Source: Treponema sp. CETP13 | GTDB taxonomy: Bacteria; Spirochaetota; Spirochaetia; Treponematales; Treponemataceae | DNA length: 64,000 bases | NCBI GenBank assembly: GCA_001885315.1 | Contig: MLPZ01000003.1 | Location: 124,001-188,000 of the forward strand | Reading direction: 5' to 3' | Shown: piece after piece, positions 40,546 to 56,327 of the stretch | How the letters are laid out: the number at the start of each line of letters is the position of its first letter | How positions within the stretch are numbered: position 1 is the stretch's first letter | Made by a program: the position numbers and the translations under genes | Notes under the pieces: generated by a model | The model's database searches: none | What the model saw: the letters and a program-made list of their open reading frames with translations, nothing else | Told to the model about the DNA's origin: nothing

Positions 40546-42402
40546 CTAAACCTTAAATTTATGAACTTCAACACCTAATTTTATTACACTTTGTGCATTT
40601 TCTTTTGACACATCTTTTGTATTATTTAAGGCATCATTAATACGCTCAGCCCCTTTATCAATCTGTAAGACAGCCTCATTAACCTTATTAGTTACATCTG
40701 CAAGAACATCCATTTCAGAAACAATTTCTTTACTTCCCGCAAGCATCTCAGTTGAGCTATCTCGAACAGATACCGTAATGTCACTAATATTTTGCATCGC
40801 TTGTAAAACCTGTCCACTCCCTGCAGATTGTTCATCCATTGCAGATTTTATGACATCTTCTTGATTTTTTACAGTATTAGTCAATTCAAAAATAGTATCA
40901 AATTGATTTTGCACTTCTCCTGTTGTAGATACAATTGCAGAAATAGAGGCTTCTAATTCTTTTAAACTACTAGAAATCGTTTGACCTTGATTATTTGAAT
41001 CTTCTGCAAGCTTTCTTATTTCATCAGCAACAACTGCAAACCCTTTTCCTGCCTCGCCTGCATGAGCCGCTTCTATTGCAGCATTCATAGCCAATAAATT
41101 TGTCTGAGTTGCAATATTTTGTATAACTTCGGTTGCTTCGATAAGACCTGCAGAATCCTGCATTACTCGAGAAGCTACTGTTACTGCATCATTGACCTTG
41201 CCTTGTCCAAGCTCAGATGCCTTCCCTAAATCTGTTACTGTAATTGCATTTTTTGACAAAATATCTGATACAGAACGTATATTGGCAACCATTTCTTCTA
41301 CGGCAGCAGAAGACTGCGAAACACTCGCAGATTGAGATTCAATTTGTGAATTAAGCTTTTCTATTCGCTGTTGAATTTGTAAAACAGTTGAATGTGCTTC
41401 CTCTACTCCTGCTGATTGATTTATTACTTCATCTTTTATATCAGCTATAGAAGTTATCATTTTTTTTATCACTGTTTCGGCATTGGTAATTTCATTTTCT
41501 AATTTTTTAGCGACAGCTTCCGAAACATTTTCTGTTTCTAATATATCTTTTAACAGCGTTTTTGTAGAATCTACAAAAATATTCACCTGTTTTGTTAATA
41601 TTCCTACTTCATCTCGAGTTACTATGGCCAATTCATCCATAGAGAAATCTCTTTGTGAAAGAAGTTCTGTATTATCAACAACCGCTTCAAGCGCATCTGC
41701 TGCTGCTTTTGATTGTAATACAAAATCATATACAGCAAAAATAATACCAATAATCGCAGTAGGGATTACATGCCAGAACATAACTTCGGAAAAAGGGACA
41801 GACTGTATTACCAAATACATTGCAGTTATAGTACAAAAAACTGCACCACAAACACTAATAAGCGCAATTAAAGAAGACCTTTTAACAAAACTTAATGCAA
41901 TATTGTTTTTATCAAGAGGAACATACTGTACCCATATTTCATATTCATGTAACCAATGTATATAAAAAACAGGCGACACAAGAGAAAACACACCTATAGC
42001 AGCTGCCCAAAGAGGAAAAGCTAAAAACTTGCTTCCGTTAAGTTTGCCCAAGGCAACTATCAATAGGGCTGTAAAAATCATAGAAAGAATCGAAAAAGCA
42101 AGTCCCATTAATGGGAAATATTTTACCGCTTTATTAACTGTATTAAAAGTTTCTGCACTACCGTCATATTCACTGATTCTCTTACCAAAAGACCAACTAA
42201 ATAAAAAAGCAATACCAATAAAAACAATAACAAAAAGTATATATTGCCAAGATAAAAAATAATCAATTATTTCTGAAGATTGAAGAAGCTTATTGTATGT
42301 TATTAAAACAACAAAAAAGACTTGACAAGCAACAAAAGATACAACATTCAACACAACCAATCTTGTTGGCATTGTTGGCATTTTAATTTTTTTATTTTGC
42401 AT
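40546..42402 (-). CDS. Methyl-accepting chemotaxis protein with six-helix membrane sensor (paralogue)
   Basis: The product has 618 residues and the same layout as its downstream neighbour. A six-helix N-terminal membrane region (about 1-245) opens [16 protein letters not shown], compared with [16 protein letters not shown] in the neighbour. The coiled-coil signalling domain has a near-identical tip. The membrane parts have drifted far more than the tips, so the two probably sense different cues, perhaps within the membrane or at short loops. AGGAG followed by six bases sets the ATG at 42402; an in-frame TTG two codons earlier overlaps the spacer. The 73-base gap to the neighbour suggests possible co-transcription. 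Confidence 0.92.
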
Positions 42403-47798: not shown

Positions 47799-48584
47799 TT
47801 AACGAGCTCCATCAGAAAGTTCTTTTGCTTTGTTATAAATTCGCTCATACAATAGTTTTGAGTTTAAGAATTCATTTGTAGGTTTGTTTTCTTGTTCTTC
47901 TACAAATTTAGAAATAATATTAACAAAAACAGACCCTGCAACAACGGCATAAACGTGAGGAGCAAGGGTCTTGCTTTGCTCACCATTTTGAATACCAAAT
48001 CCACCTAAGATTTTAGAACCGCCTTCACTGCATCTTTCGATATATTGTATCATATCATCTGTAATAGTCGTTGCCTGCCCTGTAATTCCTGCTCGCAAAA
48101 CACTATAAATATATTTAAAACCTGCATGAGCAACTTTTGAAAGTCTCTCATCTGTTACTGATGGGGCAATAACAGGAATTTGATTTACATTGTATTTTTC
48201 ACACAAAGTTTTTAACCCTTCATCACAATCAAAAGGTAAGTCCCCAATAATAAAACCTGTAGCACCAATTTTTATTGCTCGCTCTACAAAGTTTTGCATA
48301 CCAGGTCTAAAAAAAATAGAAGTGTAGGACATTAAAAAAATTTCAATATCAGGATGTTTTTTATGAACCTTTCCAATAAAATCTAATCCATTTTGTGTCG
48401 TGTATCCACGAGCAAGAACTTTTGCATTTGCATTTTGAATTATTTTACCATCAGCGCTCGGATCGCTAAACGGTAATTGAACTTCTAATATTTTTGCTCC
48501 ACCGTCTATTAGAGCATCTGCTACAATAAGAGCTGTTTCATCATCAGGATACCCTGCAACTTGATGTGCCATTAAAATTGCCAT
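47799..48584 (-). CDS. trpA: Tryptophan synthase alpha subunit
   Basis: The product has 261 residues and splits indole-3-glycerol phosphate to indole for the beta subunit. The active-site strand is EVQLPFSDPSADGKIIQNAN (about 33-52), holding the catalytic Glu and Asp. YIYSVLRAGITG (about 169) and LGGFGIQ (about 205) bind the phosphate. The N-terminus is short, beginning almost at the first barrel strand (MAILMAHQVAGYPDD), so the usual leading helix is reduced. It is last in the trp operon, 27 bases after trpB, with AAGGAG upstream. Confidence 0.93.
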   Translation of the reverse strand: MAILMAHQVAGYPDDETALIVADALIDGGAKILEVQLPFSDPSADGKIIQNANAKVLARGYTTQNGLDFIGKVHKKHPDIEIFLMSYTSIFFRPGMQNFVERAIKIGATGFIIGDLPFDCDEGLKTLCEKYNVNQIPVIAPSVTDERLSKVAHAGFKYIYSVLRAGITGQATTITDDMIQYIERCSEGGSKILGGFGIQNGEQSKTLAPHVYAVVAGSVFVNIISKFVEEQENKPTNEFLNSKLLYERIYNKAKELSDGAR

Positions 48585-48611: not shown

Positions 48612-49922
48612 TTAAGCCTCTTCCTCGTGAATTGTTATTTTTGAAGAATGAATTTCTGTATTTGAATTAAGTCTCTCTAATTCACCTTGTAAAAACTCAC
48701 CCCATTCTTTTGGTCTAAAAACAGGGGATGTAATAAAGATATCTTTATCTCCTCGACCGCTCATGTTAATAACAATTACTTTATCTTTACTCATTGTTTT
48801 AGCAAGTTTTAAAGCCTCTGATCCTGCATGAGCACTTTCAAGTGCAAATAAAACACCTTCATTTTGTGCAAAAACTTTAACCGCATTTAATGCCTCGCTA
48901 TCAGTTGCAGAAGTAAATTCTATACGTCCTTTTTCACCTAAATAAGCAAGCTGAGGTCCAATTCCTGCATAATCTAAACCTGCCGAAATCGAACGAGTAT
49001 CATTAACTTGCCCGTCTTCATTTACTAAAAACTTACTTTTATAGCCATGCAGTATATCTAAATGTGCGTCACCTGCCATTCGAACAGCATTGTTTCCCTC
49101 TCCAGGTCCTATTCCACCTGCTTCTACTGCAATAAGCCGAGGTTTTTGTTCGTTTATATACGGCTCGAAAAAACCAATGGCATTTGATCCACCACCAACA
49201 CATGCTATACATGCATCAGGAGAAAGACCTCGTTCTGCCAATTGGGATTTAGTTTCACGACCAACAAAAGACTGAAAAGTTCGAACCATATCAGGAAAAG
49301 GATCGGGGCCTAAGGCAGAACCAATAACATAATGAGTTGTCTCAAAATTAGCTGCCCAGTCTCTCATAGCCTCGTTTATTGCATCTTTTAGAATACGAGA
49401 GCCAGTTAAAACAGGAACAACTTTTGCACCATACAACTCCATTGAAGCTACATTTGGCTGTTGCCGTTTCATATCAATTTCGCCCATATAGACTGTACAT
49501 TTCATACCCAAACGAGCACAGGCTGCTGCTGTTGCCACGCCATGTTGCCCCGCACCAGTTTCGGCAATAATTCGAGTTTTACCACTATATTTTGCCAAAA
49601 GAACTTGCCCAATAGCATTATTAATTTTATGAGCACCTGTATTTGCAAGTCCTTCAAGTTTTACATAAATTTGGGCTCCACCTAACAAATCACTTGTGCG
49701 CTTTGCATGAAGCATAGGTGTTGGACGGCCTATAAAATCACGTTGCAATTCAGAAAGTTCTGCTAGAAACTTATTGTCTTTCATCGCCTTTTCAAAATTG
49801 ACACCAGTTTCATCAATCGTGCGACGTAAAATTTCTGCCACATATTTACCGCCAAATTGACCAAAAAAACCATTGTCACTCATTCGCGGTGTATCACTTA
49901 TTCTTTTCTCTATTGATTCCAT
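48612..49922 (-). CDS. trpB: Tryptophan synthase beta subunit
   Basis: The product has 436 residues. It condenses indole with serine to tryptophan using pyridoxal phosphate. GFFGQFGGKYVAEIL opens the domain. The PLP Lys is in TGAHKINNA (about 97), GAGQHGVATA follows, and CVGGGSNAIGFF (about 239) binds the PLP phosphate. It is longer than the typical 395-400 by a C-terminal extension (about 410-436). It begins one base after the trpCF stop, so translation is coupled. Confidence 0.97.
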   Translation of the reverse strand: MESIEKRISDTPRMSDNGFFGQFGGKYVAEILRRTIDETGVNFEKAMKDNKFLAELSELQRDFIGRPTPMLHAKRTSDLLGGAQIYVKLEGLANTGAHKINNAIGQVLLAKYSGKTRIIAETGAGQHGVATAAACARLGMKCTVYMGEIDMKRQQPNVASMELYGAKVVPVLTGSRILKDAINEAMRDWAANFETTHYVIGSALGPDPFPDMVRTFQSFVGRETKSQLAERGLSPDACIACVGGGSNAIGFFEPYINEQKPRLIAVEAGGIGPGEGNNAVRMAGDAHLDILHGYKSKFLVNEDGQVNDTRSISAGLDYAGIGPQLAYLGEKGRIEFTSATDSEALNAVKVFAQNEGVLFALESAHAGSEALKLAKTMSKDKVIVINMSGRGDKDIFITSPVFRPKEWGEFLQGELERLNSNTEIHSSKITIHEEEA

Positions 49923-49923
49923 T

Positions 49924-51477
49924 TTAATTCCTTATGTTTTCAAACAATTTTTCTAATTTCTTATGATCCTTTATACCAGGAGAACTTTCTACCCCGCTCG
50001 AAACATCTATTAGTTCTGGAGAGAACGTTGCTAGTACACTGCCAACGTTCTCTGGATTTATACCCCCAGCAAGCCACAAAGGTGATTTTTTCTGAGCAAT
50101 ACTTACAAGCTCATTAGAGATTTGAACACCTGTGCCTCCATCTTTTCCTACTACATTTGCATCGATTAAAACCCGCGGCTGTCCAAAATTAAGAACTTTT
50201 TCTAAATTTGCTATATCATCTCTTGAGCCAATTTTTACTGCTTGATAATGCCAAAAATCCTGAGTTGCTATACCACTTGGAGAGCAATTATGAAACTGCA
50301 CTGCATCTAAAATCCCAACAGTTGCTAAACCAATAGCAACTTGGCCTTCTGTAGAATTTTGGTCTGTAATTACTCCAACACACATTACTTGAGAATACTT
50401 TTCTCGCACTTTCTTGCAAATTGCTGTTATTGTTTTTTTATCTACATAGCGAGGACTTTTTTTTACAGATATAAAACCTAAAAAATCTGCTCCTAATTCG
50501 CACGCTTTAAGAGCATCTTTGACATTTGTAATTCCACATATTTTAACAAACGGAAGTGTTTTATTTGGCTTAAGTGAACTTAACCGTATTTTTTCAATCT
50601 TATTATAGCTTCGCACTCCGAGCTCAAGCGCATATTGTTTCCACTTTATAGTATTAAGAAAAACTTCTTTTGTGCCACCTGCTAAAAATGAGTCCACAAG
50701 AGAATGTGCTTTTTGAGGATTTTTTGAAGCAGCCTCTCCCACTAACATACCATAAAAGCCTAGACTTCCTGCAAACCTTGCTCCCATTGGAGTATGGATT
50801 CCTGATTCAAATATCATTTTTTTTGGTAGCGCATCGCCATAAGTTAACGGCTTAAGTAAATCGATCGCAAATGTCGCTAAATCTCGAGTATTTGTCCCTG
50901 CAACTACATTATCAAGACTTTTCCCTTTTTTTAACAATGCCTTTTCTACATCATGATATTTTCCAATATCTTCGTCAGTTCTTAGTTCTATAAGCATTCC
51001 AAGTCCAAGATCTGCACACCGCACTGCCATATCTATTAAACGCTCTGTTTCTAAAATACGTGCGATAAGCAATACCGCATCTGCTCCAACTTTGTATGAA
51101 GCATCAATTTCACTAATATCTGTCAAAAAATCTTTACGCAAGATTGCAGGTTTTTCACCCTTTTGACTATCTAAAACCCTTGCAACTTCGACTATATCTT
51201 GCAAACTACCTTTAAAATAATTATTTTCTGTAAGTATAGAAATCGCAGCTGCTCCGGCTTTTTGATACTCTATAGCAAGGGTACTCGGATCCAAAGAGGG
51301 AGCAATATCTCCCTTTGACGGAGAAGCTCTTTTTATCTCTAGAATAACTCCCTTCTCAGGCAAAAAAGGAGTAATTGAACGCTCCCGTTTTTTAGGAATA
51401 GTAAAACAAAAGTTTTTTTCTTTGTTTATTTTATCTAATTCTCGCTCTTTAATAATAGTTTGTAATATAGAATCCAC
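49924..51477 (-). CDS. trpCF: Bifunctional indole-3-glycerol-phosphate synthase / phosphoribosylanthranilate isomerase
   Basis: The product is a 517-residue two-barrel fusion. The TrpC half (about 1-260) carries VILEIKRASPSKGDIAPS (about 45), ILRKDFLTD and IFESGIHT. The TrpF half (about 305-517) opens PFVKICGITNVKDALK and later carries VLIDANVVGKDGGTG and LAGGINPENV. It converts phosphoribosylanthranilate through to indole-3-glycerol phosphate. The two activities are usually separate genes; the fused form is best known from enteric bacteria. It starts 11 bases after trpGD. Confidence 0.95.
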   Translation of the reverse strand: MDSILQTIIKERELDKINKEKNFCFTIPKKRERSITPFLPEKGVILEIKRASPSKGDIAPSLDPSTLAIEYQKAGAAAISILTENNYFKGSLQDIVEVARVLDSQKGEKPAILRKDFLTDISEIDASYKVGADAVLLIARILETERLIDMAVRCADLGLGMLIELRTDEDIGKYHDVEKALLKKGKSLDNVVAGTNTRDLATFAIDLLKPLTYGDALPKKMIFESGIHTPMGARFAGSLGFYGMLVGEAASKNPQKAHSLVDSFLAGGTKEVFLNTIKWKQYALELGVRSYNKIEKIRLSSLKPNKTLPFVKICGITNVKDALKACELGADFLGFISVKKSPRYVDKKTITAICKKVREKYSQVMCVGVITDQNSTEGQVAIGLATVGILDAVQFHNCSPSGIATQDFWHYQAVKIGSRDDIANLEKVLNFGQPRVLIDANVVGKDGGTGVQISNELVSIAQKKSPLWLAGGINPENVGSVLATFSPELIDVSSGVESSPGIKDHKKLEKLFENIRN

Positions 51478-51488
51478 AATTCCAATCC

Positions 51489-53087
51489 TTAGGCAGCATT
51501 TGAAAGCTCGACAACTTGGTCAAGTTTTTTTTGAACAGCCCCCATTGCAAGAGCTTCTTTTGCGCGATTATAACCTTCTTTTATTGTTGCAACTTTTCCA
51601 GCGACACACATTGCAGCCCCTGCATTTAAACAAACTGCAGCTGTTACTGTTTTATTTGCTTTACCAGCAAGAATTTGACGTGCAATTTTTGCATTATCAT
51701 CACCAGTACCACCAGCTAAATCTTCTATTTTACAACCCGTAATTCCAAATTCAGCAGGATCTATTTTGTACTGTGACTCCTTACCATTTTCATCGATTTC
51801 AAAGACAGAAGTTTTTGCACATGGAGAAATCTCGTCAAAACCATCCTCACTATGTACAACCATTACGTGTTTTGGACCAAGCATTTTTGCAGCATGAGCA
51901 TACAATTCTAAAAGAGACTCATCATATACCCCAAGCATTTGATAGGTAGCATTCGCAGGATTAGAAAGAGGTCCCATAAGGTTCATAATAGTTTTAATAC
52001 CTAAAGCCCCACGAACAGGACCTGCAAAACGCATTGCAGCATGATAGATTGGCGCAAACAAAAATGCAAAACCTGTCTTTTCTACCAATTTGGCAGATTT
52101 TTCTGGACTTACATCTATTTTTATTCCTAACGCTGTATAAAAGTTTGCAGCACCACTTTTTGAAGACACCGCACGATTACCATGTTTTGCCATTGGAACA
52201 CCACAACTAGCTGCTACTAAAGCTGACATTGAGCTAATATTAAAACTTCCTTTACCATCTCCTCCTGTTCCAACAATTTCACATACCTCATTGTTAGAAA
52301 GAGGGAGAGTAACTTTTTTGCTATTAAGAACTTTTGCACAAGCAGCAACTTCTTGTGAAGTATACCCTTTTACTGCAAGCGCACTTAAAATAGCAGCTGA
52401 TTTTCGCTCGTCCAGACAACCTTCGGTTAAATCTTCCATAAACATAGCAGCTTGCTCGGCACTTAAATCTTTTTTTGCACAAATTGTATTAAGAGTTTCT
52501 GATACATCTAACGGTTTTACCCTATAATTTAGAAAAGCTGTAAAAAATTGTTTTTCATATTCTGAAGCAACTGATTCTGGATGAAATTGAACCCCTTCAA
52601 TCGGCATTGTTTTATGTCGAACGCCCATTACATCACCATCTGCACTTCTTGCAGTCACTTCAAAATCTTTTGGAAGTGTTGCCTCATCGACAACTAAACT
52701 ATGATATCGAGTAAAAGTAGCCTCTTTTCCAATAAGTCTAAAAAGCCCTTTTCCATCTAGCGCTATTTTTTGAGCTTGTCCATGACAAATATCCTTTGCT
52801 TGCACAATTTTTGCACCAAACGCCTGGCAAATACATTGATGGCCAAGACAAACACCCATTATTGGTATTTTTCCTGCAAAATATTTAATTGCCTCTAAAG
52901 ATACACCAGCATCTTCTGGGCGTCCCGCTCCTGGAGATACAATAAGCCTACTAGGGTTAAGAGCCTCTAAATCTTTTACAGAAACTTCTTTGCTTCTAAT
53001 AGTTTTAATTTCTTCGCTAGTGTATTTCGATAAGGCTTGAACTACATTAAAAGTAAAAGAATCGTAATTGTCTAATAAAATAATCAT
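51489..53087 (-). CDS. trpGD: Bifunctional anthranilate synthase glutaminase / anthranilate phosphoribosyltransferase
   Basis: The product is a 532-residue fusion. The TrpG glutaminase (about 1-195) has DNYDSFTFNVVQAL, the nucleophile Cys in MGVCLGHQCICQAFG (about 80) and the His/Glu pair in GVQFHPESVA (about 168). The TrpD part (about 200-532) has the PRPP-binding VGTGGDGKGSFNISS (about 268), KHGNRAVSSKSG and a DEISP loop. It supplies ammonia for anthranilate and then adds phosphoribose from PRPP. It starts 18 bases after trpE with AGGAGA upstream. Confidence 0.95.
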   Translation of the reverse strand: MIILLDNYDSFTFNVVQALSKYTSEEIKTIRSKEVSVKDLEALNPSRLIVSPGAGRPEDAGVSLEAIKYFAGKIPIMGVCLGHQCICQAFGAKIVQAKDICHGQAQKIALDGKGLFRLIGKEATFTRYHSLVVDEATLPKDFEVTARSADGDVMGVRHKTMPIEGVQFHPESVASEYEKQFFTAFLNYRVKPLDVSETLNTICAKKDLSAEQAAMFMEDLTEGCLDERKSAAILSALAVKGYTSQEVAACAKVLNSKKVTLPLSNNEVCEIVGTGGDGKGSFNISSMSALVAASCGVPMAKHGNRAVSSKSGAANFYTALGIKIDVSPEKSAKLVEKTGFAFLFAPIYHAAMRFAGPVRGALGIKTIMNLMGPLSNPANATYQMLGVYDESLLELYAHAAKMLGPKHVMVVHSEDGFDEISPCAKTSVFEIDENGKESQYKIDPAEFGITGCKIEDLAGGTGDDNAKIARQILAGKANKTVTAAVCLNAGAAMCVAGKVATIKEGYNRAKEALAMGAVQKKLDQVVELSNAA

Positions 53088-53105: not shown

Positions 53106-54557
53106 CTATTTACTTAAAAAAATTGTTTTCATTGCATCTATTTTTTCACACGTCTCGATCCACTCTCTCTCTGGGATACTTGCATGAGTTATGCCACCTC
53201 CAGCTTGTAAGGTCCAAACATTTTTTTGTTTAAGAGCACATCTAATTGCAATGCAAAAATCTAAGTCCCCATCTACAGAAAGGTATCCAACAGAACCTGC
53301 ATAAAAATTCCGCTTTTCTTTTTCTAAACCAGAAAGAATTTCAATTGCACTTATCTTTGGCGCACCACTCACCGTTCCAGCAGGAAAAGACGATCTAAGT
53401 ATTTTAACTGCAACATCTGTGTCAGAGGGAACCGTTTTACCCGTAACTTCAGATACTAGATGAATTACAGTGCTATATTTTTCGCAAACCATAAGCTTAG
53501 TCACTTTTATAGATCCAGAGTCACAAACTCGGCCTAAATCATTTCGCGCTAAGTCTACAAGCATAAGATGTTCTGCTTTTTCTTTTGGATCATTAATAAG
53601 TTCAGTACTTAAAGCTTCATCTTCTGCAAGATTTTTCCCACGGCGCCGAGTTCCTGCAATAGGGTGAATTGTTGCTACACCTTTTCGAACACGTACAAGA
53701 CTTTCTGGGGAAGCTCCTACTAACTGAAAATCATCAAAATCTAAATAAAACATGTATGGGGATGGATTTTTTTGACGTAAGCGCCGATATACTTCAAGAG
53801 CTGAAGTAGAATCTTTTATTTGCAACCGACGAGAAGGAACTGCTTGTATTATGTCCCCGGCTATAATGTGTTTTTGAAGTTTAACTACTTTTTCTACATA
53901 CTCATCATGTGTTTTTTGAATATCTGTAATTACTTCTATTTCTGAATTAGTACTTTTCTTTGGTTCACTTAAATAAGTAAAATCTAAATCAGAAATACGT
54001 TTTTGGATATTTTCTATTGCATTCTCTAAATCAATCTTGCTTTCTTTATAATTAAGGGCGACCAAGTACATCATTTCCGTGAAATGATCAAAAATAATAT
54101 ACATATGTCCAATGATAAAACAACCTTCTGGTATTGCAAGATTATCTTTTTGATCACTCAGCATTATCGTATCGCAACGGGCACAAAACTCGTAACCCAA
54201 ATAACCAAGACCAGCTCCCGGTAACGGTAAATATTTTGATTGCATTTTCCCATTACTCTTTTTATCTGCATTTATAAGTACACTTTTATGTTGTTTTGCT
54301 ATGGCAGCCAAATTATCAAGAATATCACCTTCTAGTTTTGTCTCTACTTGTCGTCCATCTTCTACACTAATTCGAACAGCTCCATAACTTTTTTGAACAA
54401 TTCTAAAAGCTTCATCAATCATCAAAATAGAGTACCGATCTTTACCAGCCGAAAAAGAAGCTGATTCTAAAACGGCTTTGGCTTGTAATTTTTTTGCTAA
54501 CAAAAAAGGAGTAAATCGATCTCCCGAAATTTTTTTAATTATAGACTTTACTGGCAT
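53106..54557 (-). CDS. trpE: Anthranilate synthase component I
   Basis: The product has 483 residues. The chorismate-binding half holds YMFYLDFDDFQLVGASPESL (about 267-286), IHPIAGTRRRGKN, VDLARNDLGRVCDSGS (about 335), SFPAGTVSGAPKI (about 393) and QAGGGITHASIPEREW (about 455). It joins ammonia to chorismate to give anthranilate. The N-terminal domain carries the LLES-like feedback-inhibition element as VLESASF (about 29), so tryptophan inhibition is likely. It is first in the operon, with GAGGAA before the ATG, downstream of a promoter with three dyads. Confidence 0.96.
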   Translation of the reverse strand: MPVKSIIKKISGDRFTPFLLAKKLQAKAVLESASFSAGKDRYSILMIDEAFRIVQKSYGAVRISVEDGRQVETKLEGDILDNLAAIAKQHKSVLINADKKSNGKMQSKYLPLPGAGLGYLGYEFCARCDTIMLSDQKDNLAIPEGCFIIGHMYIIFDHFTEMMYLVALNYKESKIDLENAIENIQKRISDLDFTYLSEPKKSTNSEIEVITDIQKTHDEYVEKVVKLQKHIIAGDIIQAVPSRRLQIKDSTSALEVYRRLRQKNPSPYMFYLDFDDFQLVGASPESLVRVRKGVATIHPIAGTRRRGKNLAEDEALSTELINDPKEKAEHLMLVDLARNDLGRVCDSGSIKVTKLMVCEKYSTVIHLVSEVTGKTVPSDTDVAVKILRSSFPAGTVSGAPKISAIEILSGLEKEKRNFYAGSVGYLSVDGDLDFCIAIRCALKQKNVWTLQAGGGITHASIPEREWIETCEKIDAMKTIFLSK

Positions 54558-54598: not shown

Positions 54599-54618
54599 TG
54601 TTACTATAAACAGTAACA
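54599..54618. promoter_or_regulatory. trp operator dyad 1
   Basis: TGTTACT-N6-AGTAACA, perfect seven-base arms, downstream of the predicted trpE transcription start. Confidence 0.75.
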
Positions 54619-54629
54619 AATAACCATAC

Positions 54630-54649
54630 TGTTACTTTACACAGTAACA
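54630..54649. promoter_or_regulatory. trp operator dyad 2
   Basis: TGTTACT-N6-AGTAACA again with identical arms, centred exactly 31 bases (three helical turns) from dyad 1 and covering the trpE -10 box. Confidence 0.75.
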
Positions 54650-54662
54650 TTGTTTCTGTCAA
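54634..54662 (-). promoter_or_regulatory. trp operon promoter
   Basis: A minus-strand TTGACA, 17 bases, then TAAAGT. The -35 lies inside dyad 3 and the -10 inside dyad 2. Confidence 0.75.
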
Positions 54663-54669
54663 TAGAAAC
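54652..54669. promoter_or_regulatory. trp operator dyad 3 (variant)
   Basis: GTTTCT-N6-AGAAAC, one base per arm different from dyads 1 and 2, centred 21 bases (two turns) from dyad 2 and covering the -35. Confidence 0.6.
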
Positions 54670-54737
54670 TGCATTTTTTTATGACTTTTTTTTAACTTTG
54701 TGTTAAGCTGAATGAATTACAAATGTAAGGAGTCAGA

Positions 54738-56327
54738 ATGAAAAAAAGAGCATTGATAAGTGTTTTTGTAAAAGATGGAATTCTGGAATTAGCCCAATAT
54801 TTAAAAAGTACAGATTGGGAAATTCTTTCAACAGGTGGAACAGCCAAATATTTATCTGAAAATAACATTGAAGTCACAGATGTAAGCTCTGTAACTGGTT
54901 TTCCAGAGTGTTTAGATGGCCGTGTAAAAACCTTACATCCTAAAATCCACGCAGGTCTACTTGCTCGTCGCGATGATAAAAATCATATGCAACAACTAAA
55001 GGATCTTGATGTAACGCCTATCGATTTAGTTTGTGTTAACTTGTATCCATTCTTTGAAAAAGTTCAAGCTGGACTTTCTTTTCCTGAAACGGTTGAATTC
55101 ATCGACATTGGTGGACCAACAATGCTTCGATCTGCAGCTAAAAACTTTAAAGATGTTATTGTAATCACAGAACCAGAAGACTATTCTACTATTATTACTG
55201 ACATGAAAGCAGGTGAAATATCTTACGATCGCCGACGAGAATTAGCTGGAAAAGTTTTTAACTTAACATCTGCTTATGATGCAGCAGTGTCCCGTTTTAT
55301 GCTGAGCAACAAATCAGAAGAACTTCCTAAATATTATGATATGCCACTTATAAAATCACAAGAACTTCGATATGGAGAAAATTCACACCAAAAAGCTGCA
55401 TTGTATCTTACTCCTGACCACAAAGGTGCTTTTGGAGGAATGAAACAACTTCATGGAAAAGCTTTGTCGTATAATAACATGAGAGATCTTGATATCGCAT
55501 GGAAAGGCGTTTGTGCTTTTAACAAATTTGTTAAAAATGCAAAACCAGTTGGTGGAGTTTCTTTTGGAGATTGTTCAAAAAGTATTTTTACTATTGCATT
55601 AAAACACAATACTCCTTGTGGAGCCGCACTTGGGAAAACTCCTTTTGAAAGCTACAAGCGAGCATTTGATTGCGATCCAGTTTCTATTTTTGGAGGCATT
55701 GTTGGATCTAGTACAATTATTGACGAAGAAGCAGCAATAGAAATGAAAAAATGCTTTTTAGAAGTCATCGTAGCCCCTGGCTTTACAGATGGAGCATTAA
55801 AAGTTCTCGAAACCAAAAAAAATCTACGTCTTGTAACAGCAGAAATCACAACAGATGAAAAATGGGATTGCACTTCAGTTGACGGTGGTCTACTTGTGCA
55901 AAATAGAGATAATCAATTATTTGATAAATGGGAAGTTGTTACAAAAGCACAGCCAACCCAAACTCAAATTGAAGAGATGGCTTTTGGTATGACCCTTGCA
56001 ATGTTTGTAAAGTCTAACGCTTGCCTTGTTATAAAAGATAAAGCTGCAGTTGGAATCGGCTGTGGACAAACCAGTCGGATTTGGGCAGCTGAACAGGCCT
56101 TAGAGCGAGCAAAAAAAATAACAGAAGGTCTAGGCGTTAACAATGCAGAAGTTCTTATTTCAGATGCTTTTTTCCCATTCGACGATAGTGTTAGAAAAGC
56201 AGCTGAATATGGTATAAAAGCTATTATTCAACCAGGTGGATCGATTCGTGATAATGAATCTATAACAGCTTGTGACGAATTAGGTATAGCAATGGTCTTT
56301 ACTGGCATTCGCCATTTTAAACACTAG
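54738..56327 (+). CDS. purH: Bifunctional AICAR transformylase / IMP cyclohydrolase
   Basis: The product has 529 residues and does the last two steps of IMP synthesis. The N-terminal MGS-like cyclohydrolase domain (about 1-145) has LISVFVKDGI, STGGTAKYL and DGRVKTLHPKIHAGLLARR. The C-terminal transformylase (about 200-529) has LRYGENSHQKAALY, KHNTPCGAALG with the catalytic Lys-His, and SDAFFPFDDSV. AAGGAG lies eight bases before the ATG. It is divergent from trpE. Any repressor bound at the trp dyads could also affect it. Confidence 0.96.
   Translation: MKKRALISVFVKDGILELAQYLKSTDWEILSTGGTAKYLSENNIEVTDVSSVTGFPECLDGRVKTLHPKIHAGLLARRDDKNHMQQLKDLDVTPIDLVCVNLYPFFEKVQAGLSFPETVEFIDIGGPTMLRSAAKNFKDVIVITEPEDYSTIITDMKAGEISYDRRRELAGKVFNLTSAYDAAVSRFMLSNKSEELPKYYDMPLIKSQELRYGENSHQKAALYLTPDHKGAFGGMKQLHGKALSYNNMRDLDIAWKGVCAFNKFVKNAKPVGGVSFGDCSKSIFTIALKHNTPCGAALGKTPFESYKRAFDCDPVSIFGGIVGSSTIIDEEAAIEMKKCFLEVIVAPGFTDGALKVLETKKNLRLVTAEITTDEKWDCTSVDGGLLVQNRDNQLFDKWEVVTKAQPTQTQIEEMAFGMTLAMFVKSNACLVIKDKAAVGIGCGQTSRIWAAEQALERAKKITEGLGVNNAEVLISDAFFPFDDSVRKAAEYGIKAIIQPGGSIRDNESITACDELGIAMVFTGIRHFKH

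Follow-up and report, generated by a model that had tools for sequence, protein, structure and literature searches.

Three 20-bp palindromes cover the promoter of the tryptophan operon of this Treponema, and they are very probably operators at which the host's own TrpR-family protein represses the operon together with tryptophan. A class-wide version of this proposal is reasonably likely, though we hold it less firmly: a TrpR-family repressor whose operator has been re-written would run the tryptophan regulon of the spirochaetes, and the mRNA of trpR would be leaderless with its start codon inside the operator, so that a single stretch of 20 bp would hold the operator, the start of transcription, and the start codon with the codons that follow it. 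We found no description of TrpR-based tryptophan regulation in spirochaetes in the open-licence literature. In what follows, the window is the whole stretch of DNA analysed, 64,000 nucleotides long.

Predicted operator dyads over the trpE promoter

Reading of the window confirmed two exact TGTTACT-N6-AGTAACA dyads and one variant upstream of trpE (Table 1), with centres 31 and 21 bp apart, as reported in an earlier sequence-only reading. That reading gave the array as 54599-54669; its start stands, but the full 20-bp third dyad reaches 54670, one base further. On the minus strand, dyad 3 reads AGTTTCTATTGACAGAAACA, with the TTGACA of the −35 box (54662-54657) within its spacer, and dyad 2 contains the TAAAGT −10 box. 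Since dyad 1 lies in the initially transcribed region, the earlier description of dyads covering the downstream region, −10, and −35 in turn was right, and the box positions agree with it.

Table 1. Features of the trpE promoter and its surroundings (window positions; dyad scores from the matrix described in the text)
Feature	Position	Strand	Sequence or basis
Operator dyad 1 (predicted)	54599..54618	−	TGTTACTATAAACAGTAACA; exact match, 27.4 bits; initially transcribed region, about +9 to +28
Operator dyad 2 (predicted)	54630..54649	−	TGTTACTTTACACAGTAACA; exact match, 22.7 bits; over −10 box
Operator dyad 3 (predicted)	54651..54670	−	TGTTTCTGTCAATAGAAACT; variant, 25.8 bits; over −35 box
Probable trpE promoter, sigma-70 type	54634..54662	−	TTGACA, 17 bp, TAAAGT (54639-54634); start site predicted from sequence
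trpE, first gene of the operon predicted to be controlled	53106..54557	−	TIGR00564, E=1.2e-144
trpGD fusion	51489..53087	−	NF011201, above cut-off
trpCF fusion	49924..51477	−	NF006945, E=6.8e-64
trpB	48612..49922	−	ORF; 66-71% identity to full-length trpB of g20 genomes
trpA (presumed)	47799..48584	−	ORF order and sequence, family knowledge
purH, divergent neighbour	54738..56327	+	ORF; its start codon lies 67 bp past the end of the dyads

The dyads were scored with a matrix derived from trpE promoters of relatives. They are the top three matches of the window, and the next best score in the 64 kb is 8.8 bits. The region is intergenic and AT-rich, where palindromes might arise by chance, but the best score in 40 simulated windows was 14.0 bits, against 22.7-27.4 bits for the trpE dyads, and the dyad is kept in hundreds of genomes. 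This explanation is already refuted, and we give it practically no weight. A weak single site, TGTTTTTATCAAGAGGAACA, at window 41904-41923 scores 8.8 bits, which is inside the range of the simulated windows.

The dyads are followed by trpE, trpGD, trpCF, trpB, and trpA, all on the minus strand. The earlier reading thought co-control of the divergent purH possible; the present results lend this no support. Control of this operon could in principle be exerted mainly on the RNA, by a T-box, an attenuator, or TRAP, with the dyads secondary. An Rfam search gave no T-box or trp leader RNA in the window, including upstream of trpE, which agrees with the earlier report that neither a T-box nor an attenuator leader peptide is seen there. 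Nothing was found in favour of RNA-level control, and we regard it as highly improbable.

Conservation of the dyad and its gene neighbours

The pattern TGTT[A/T]CT-N6-AG[A/T]AACA, with the reversed pattern as control, was searched in genomes related to the host. It is present in 202 of the 274 genomes of the host's GTDB family, while the reversed control is rare. Just downstream of the family dyads lie trpE, trpB, trpB2, trpCF, trpD, and genes for TrpX-like and TrpP-like transporters, along with a few other genes, e.g., for an aldolase. Among 78 trpE upstream regions of the family, 74 contain a dyad, 68 of them two or more, and in 62 TTGACA lies in the spacer of the upstream dyad. Dyads missing from related trp promoters had been named beforehand as a finding that would refute the idea of a tryptophan repressor array, and these counts run the other way. 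Some circularity is involved, because the sites that trained the matrix come from the trpE regions to which it was then applied, but with a background of about 0.003 per kb this is of little concern. In genus g20, the strict pattern is rarely matched, and most of the trpE upstream regions examined have degenerate dyads in the same arrangement.

At the level of the class, the pattern occurs in 191 of 395 genomes. Its neighbours are again trpE, trpB, trpB2, and TrpX-like genes in most of the 30 loci examined. The trpR gene itself adjoins the dyad in five of these (L404, L405, L406, L410, and L411), with trpB2 next to trpR in L404 and L410. The conservation and gene association support the assignment of the dyads as predicted operators of a tryptophan-pathway repressor.

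In the 2.54-Mb host genome, the only occurrence of the exact dyad outside the trpE promoter is a pair at C21:20681 and 20713. The C21 pair lies upstream of a substrate-binding lipoprotein gene that is TrpX-like (NF041285, E=3.6e-79, below its cut-off). In addition, a degenerate pair at C14:21311 and 21330 (L126, 21311-21349) precedes iorA, for the alpha subunit of indolepyruvate ferredoxin oxidoreductase (TIGR03336, E=1.2e-157 over part of the gene, below cut-off), which suggests that aromatic amino acid catabolism may belong to the regulon. Judged by these sites, predicted genes of tryptophan biosynthesis, uptake, and use share one dyad mark in the host genome. Sites with one mismatch at C3 and C5 are inside coding sequence and were taken as chance.

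The TrpR-family protein

The host genome encodes one PF01371 protein, of 103 aa (G000:C16, locus L001), which matches that model with 59.3 bits (gathering threshold 27, E=4e-16). On the TrpR model TIGR01321, it scores 52.8 bits (E=4.1e-14), below the NCBIfam cut-off of 67.25; a relative from another spirochaete family (L404) scores 57.5 bits. We rejected an identity as HisR/YerC: the score on the YerC model TIGR02531 is 19.5 bits (cut-off 42.2) compared with 52.8 on the TrpR model, the targets are trp genes, and the operator is not of the TTTA type. An AlphaFold model of the protein has a pLDDT of 87.6, and the best PDB matches to the predicted fold are E. coli TrpR, with TM 0.65-0.74 and a best E-value of 1.5e-3.

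The tryptophan-pocket residues of E. coli TrpR are T44, R54, R84, G85, and S88. The first four align with T45, R55, R84, and G85 of the spirochaete protein, which are invariant in 28 relatives, and S88 is replaced, mostly by E. Half of the base-contact residues differ from those of E. coli TrpR (I79L, A80C, and T81K, giving LCK at 79-81). With E in place of S88 and LCK at 79-81, the ligand and DNA specificity of the spirochaete TrpR are what we infer rather than read off. The fold, the invariant T45, R55, R84, and G85, and the regulon together make tryptophan the likely corepressor.

A PF01371 match was found in 245 of the 274 family genomes. Among the near-complete ones, the motif occurs in 90 of 114 with the match, compared with 2 of 14 without it. 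The genomes without TrpR are mostly of genera g13 and g14, whose sampled members also have no trpE and no convincing trpB, so the co-occurrence of TrpR and motif is supportive but confounded. The dyad on trpR genes is the stronger link between this protein and the predicted sites.

The dyad on trpR

In other families, the dyad lies directly upstream of trpR. In the host family, a matrix scan found it straddling the trpR start codon in 21 of 90 genes, whereas 49 control windows gave none and 900 shuffles gave two. The host gene is one of the 21, with the dyad TGTTACTATGAATAGTTCCG (7.9 bits, degenerate on one side). Its start (L001 1795-1820, minus strand, G000:C16) reads TATACT-TGTTACT-ATG-AATAGTTCCG, where ATG begins the 103-aa protein. 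The strict pattern, which misses the many degenerate trpR dyads, had given only one case in 50. In 51 of the 90 family genes, the distance from the end of a TATAAT-like hexamer to an in-frame start is 6-8 nt, compared with 2 to 10 of them at other distances. With a −10 box placed like this, transcription would begin at the start codon or close to it, so the trpR mRNA is probably leaderless, and the gene looks self-repressed.

These data bear on the alternative of a different regulator, in which the dyads would be bound by an unrelated repressor with tryptophan or a pathway intermediate (indolepyruvate or chorismate, for example) as its signal, and the TrpR homologue would control something else. 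The half-site differs from the enteric TrpR consensus, and in G261, a 93% complete assembly, TrpR was looked for and not found despite five dyads. However, the dyad is on trpR genes themselves, both in the host family and in others, and in the TrpR family the 20-bp palindromic operators have half-sites that vary with the lineage (PMC9413887), which fits a deviating sequence. On a search that covered the TrpR family among regulators, we consider the unrelated repressor improbable. The sequence-only reading had thought a novel tryptophan repressor plausible; since a PF01371 protein is encoded in the host genome and the dyad is on trpR genes, a novel kind of protein need not be invoked.

Proposed mechanism and spacing of the dyads

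The sites, their positions, conservation, and gene association, as well as the presence of TrpR and its predicted fold, come from sequence analysis; from there, we infer binding of TrpR to the DNA, tryptophan as corepressor, repression as the direction of control, and a leaderless trpR mRNA. In the proposed mechanism, a TrpR dimer with bound tryptophan would occupy each 20-bp palindrome. Since these palindromes lie across the −35 box, the −10 box, and the initially transcribed region, RNA polymerase could neither load nor leave, and trpE-GD-CF-B-A would be switched off by tryptophan-loaded TrpR. TrpR would also shut off genes of tryptophan uptake and use, and would repress its own gene through the dyad that straddles the start codon just after the −10 box.

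The three dyads had been read as a helically phased cooperative array, at three and two turns of the helix. The phasing holds for the host trpE promoter, and the same 21 and 31 bp recur in G247 (L225). Relatives do not keep it: in the family, later dyads lie 21, 28-29, 33-37, or 43-54 bp from the −35 dyad, 36 bp being the commonest offset, and spacings of 17-19 bp are frequent as well. At a period of 10.5 bp, the 78 offsets at family trpE promoters show a weak phase (vector length 0.22). The dyad sites are conserved and their helical phase is not, and we rejected phasing as a conserved feature. An assembly of three bound dimers into one phased nucleoprotein complex would be compatible with TrpR as the repressor but, given the varied offsets, is unlikely.

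Comparison with known regulators

The published TrpR consensus is TGTAcTnGTnnACnAgTACA, and operators of the family are 20-bp palindromes whose sequence is specific to the lineage (PMC9413887); the TrpR motif changes by taxon within Proteobacteria as well (PMC5343134). The spirochaete consensus TGTT[A/T]CT-N6-AG[A/T]AACA does not fit TGTAcTnGTnnACnAgTACA, although the palindromes are equal in length, at 20 bp. The half-site had been described as unlike that of enteric TrpR for want of a CTAG core. The difference is real, TGTT[A/T]CT with a spacer of 6 bp compared with TGTACT and 8 in E. coli, but a strict CTAG core is not demanded by the consensus (PMC9413887).

With E. coli TrpR and its operators at trpE, aroH, trpR, mtr, and aroL, the spirochaete system has in common the protein family, the predicted fold, a 20-bp palindrome that starts with TGT, an operator over the trp promoter, and targets in trp biosynthesis, uptake, and trpR. 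In addition to the half-site, it differs in having TTGACA of the −35 box inside the spacer, in the number of separate dyads at a trpE promoter (usually two or three), and in LCK instead of IAT at residues 79-81. Also, unlike in E. coli, no trp leader attenuator was found in the Treponema window. The HisR (YerC) histidine repressors share PF01371, lineage-specific 20-bp palindromes, and frequent autoregulation, but have the consensus cacTTTAnnnnnnTAAAgtg (TGTAnTArnnnnyTnTTACA in proteobacteria) and his targets (PMC9413887), whereas the spirochaete targets are trp genes.

The dyads supply a predicted regulator, operator, and regulon for the whole spirochaete class, and predict which spirochaetes have lost TrpR regulation along with tryptophan synthesis. 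They also offer a naturally occurring test of how half-site and spacing can change within a small repressor family. The operator at the trpR start codon, with the apparently leaderless mRNA, would be a compact autoregulatory design. In Firmicutes, TrpX and TrpP uptake is regulated by the T-box. The same transporter families would be under tryptophan control in both groups, but in spirochaetes the controlling element would be a dyad in the DNA instead of an RNA.

Dyads next to other genes

In two spirochaete genomes (L004 5726 and L076 2956), the exact dyad precedes a gene for an HMGL-type aldolase, which resembles 4-hydroxy-2-oxovalerate aldolase with a score below cut-off. The five dyads of G261 (L334 1477-1621) are flanked by genes for a TrpP-like transporter and a phenylacetate-CoA-ligase-like protein. 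Among the matches listed, the exact pattern also occurs in many non-spirochaete contigs. In a single case (L166 1501), an exact dyad precedes a gene whose product appears to have cyclic-nucleotide-binding and GGDEF-like domains, as assigned by eye.
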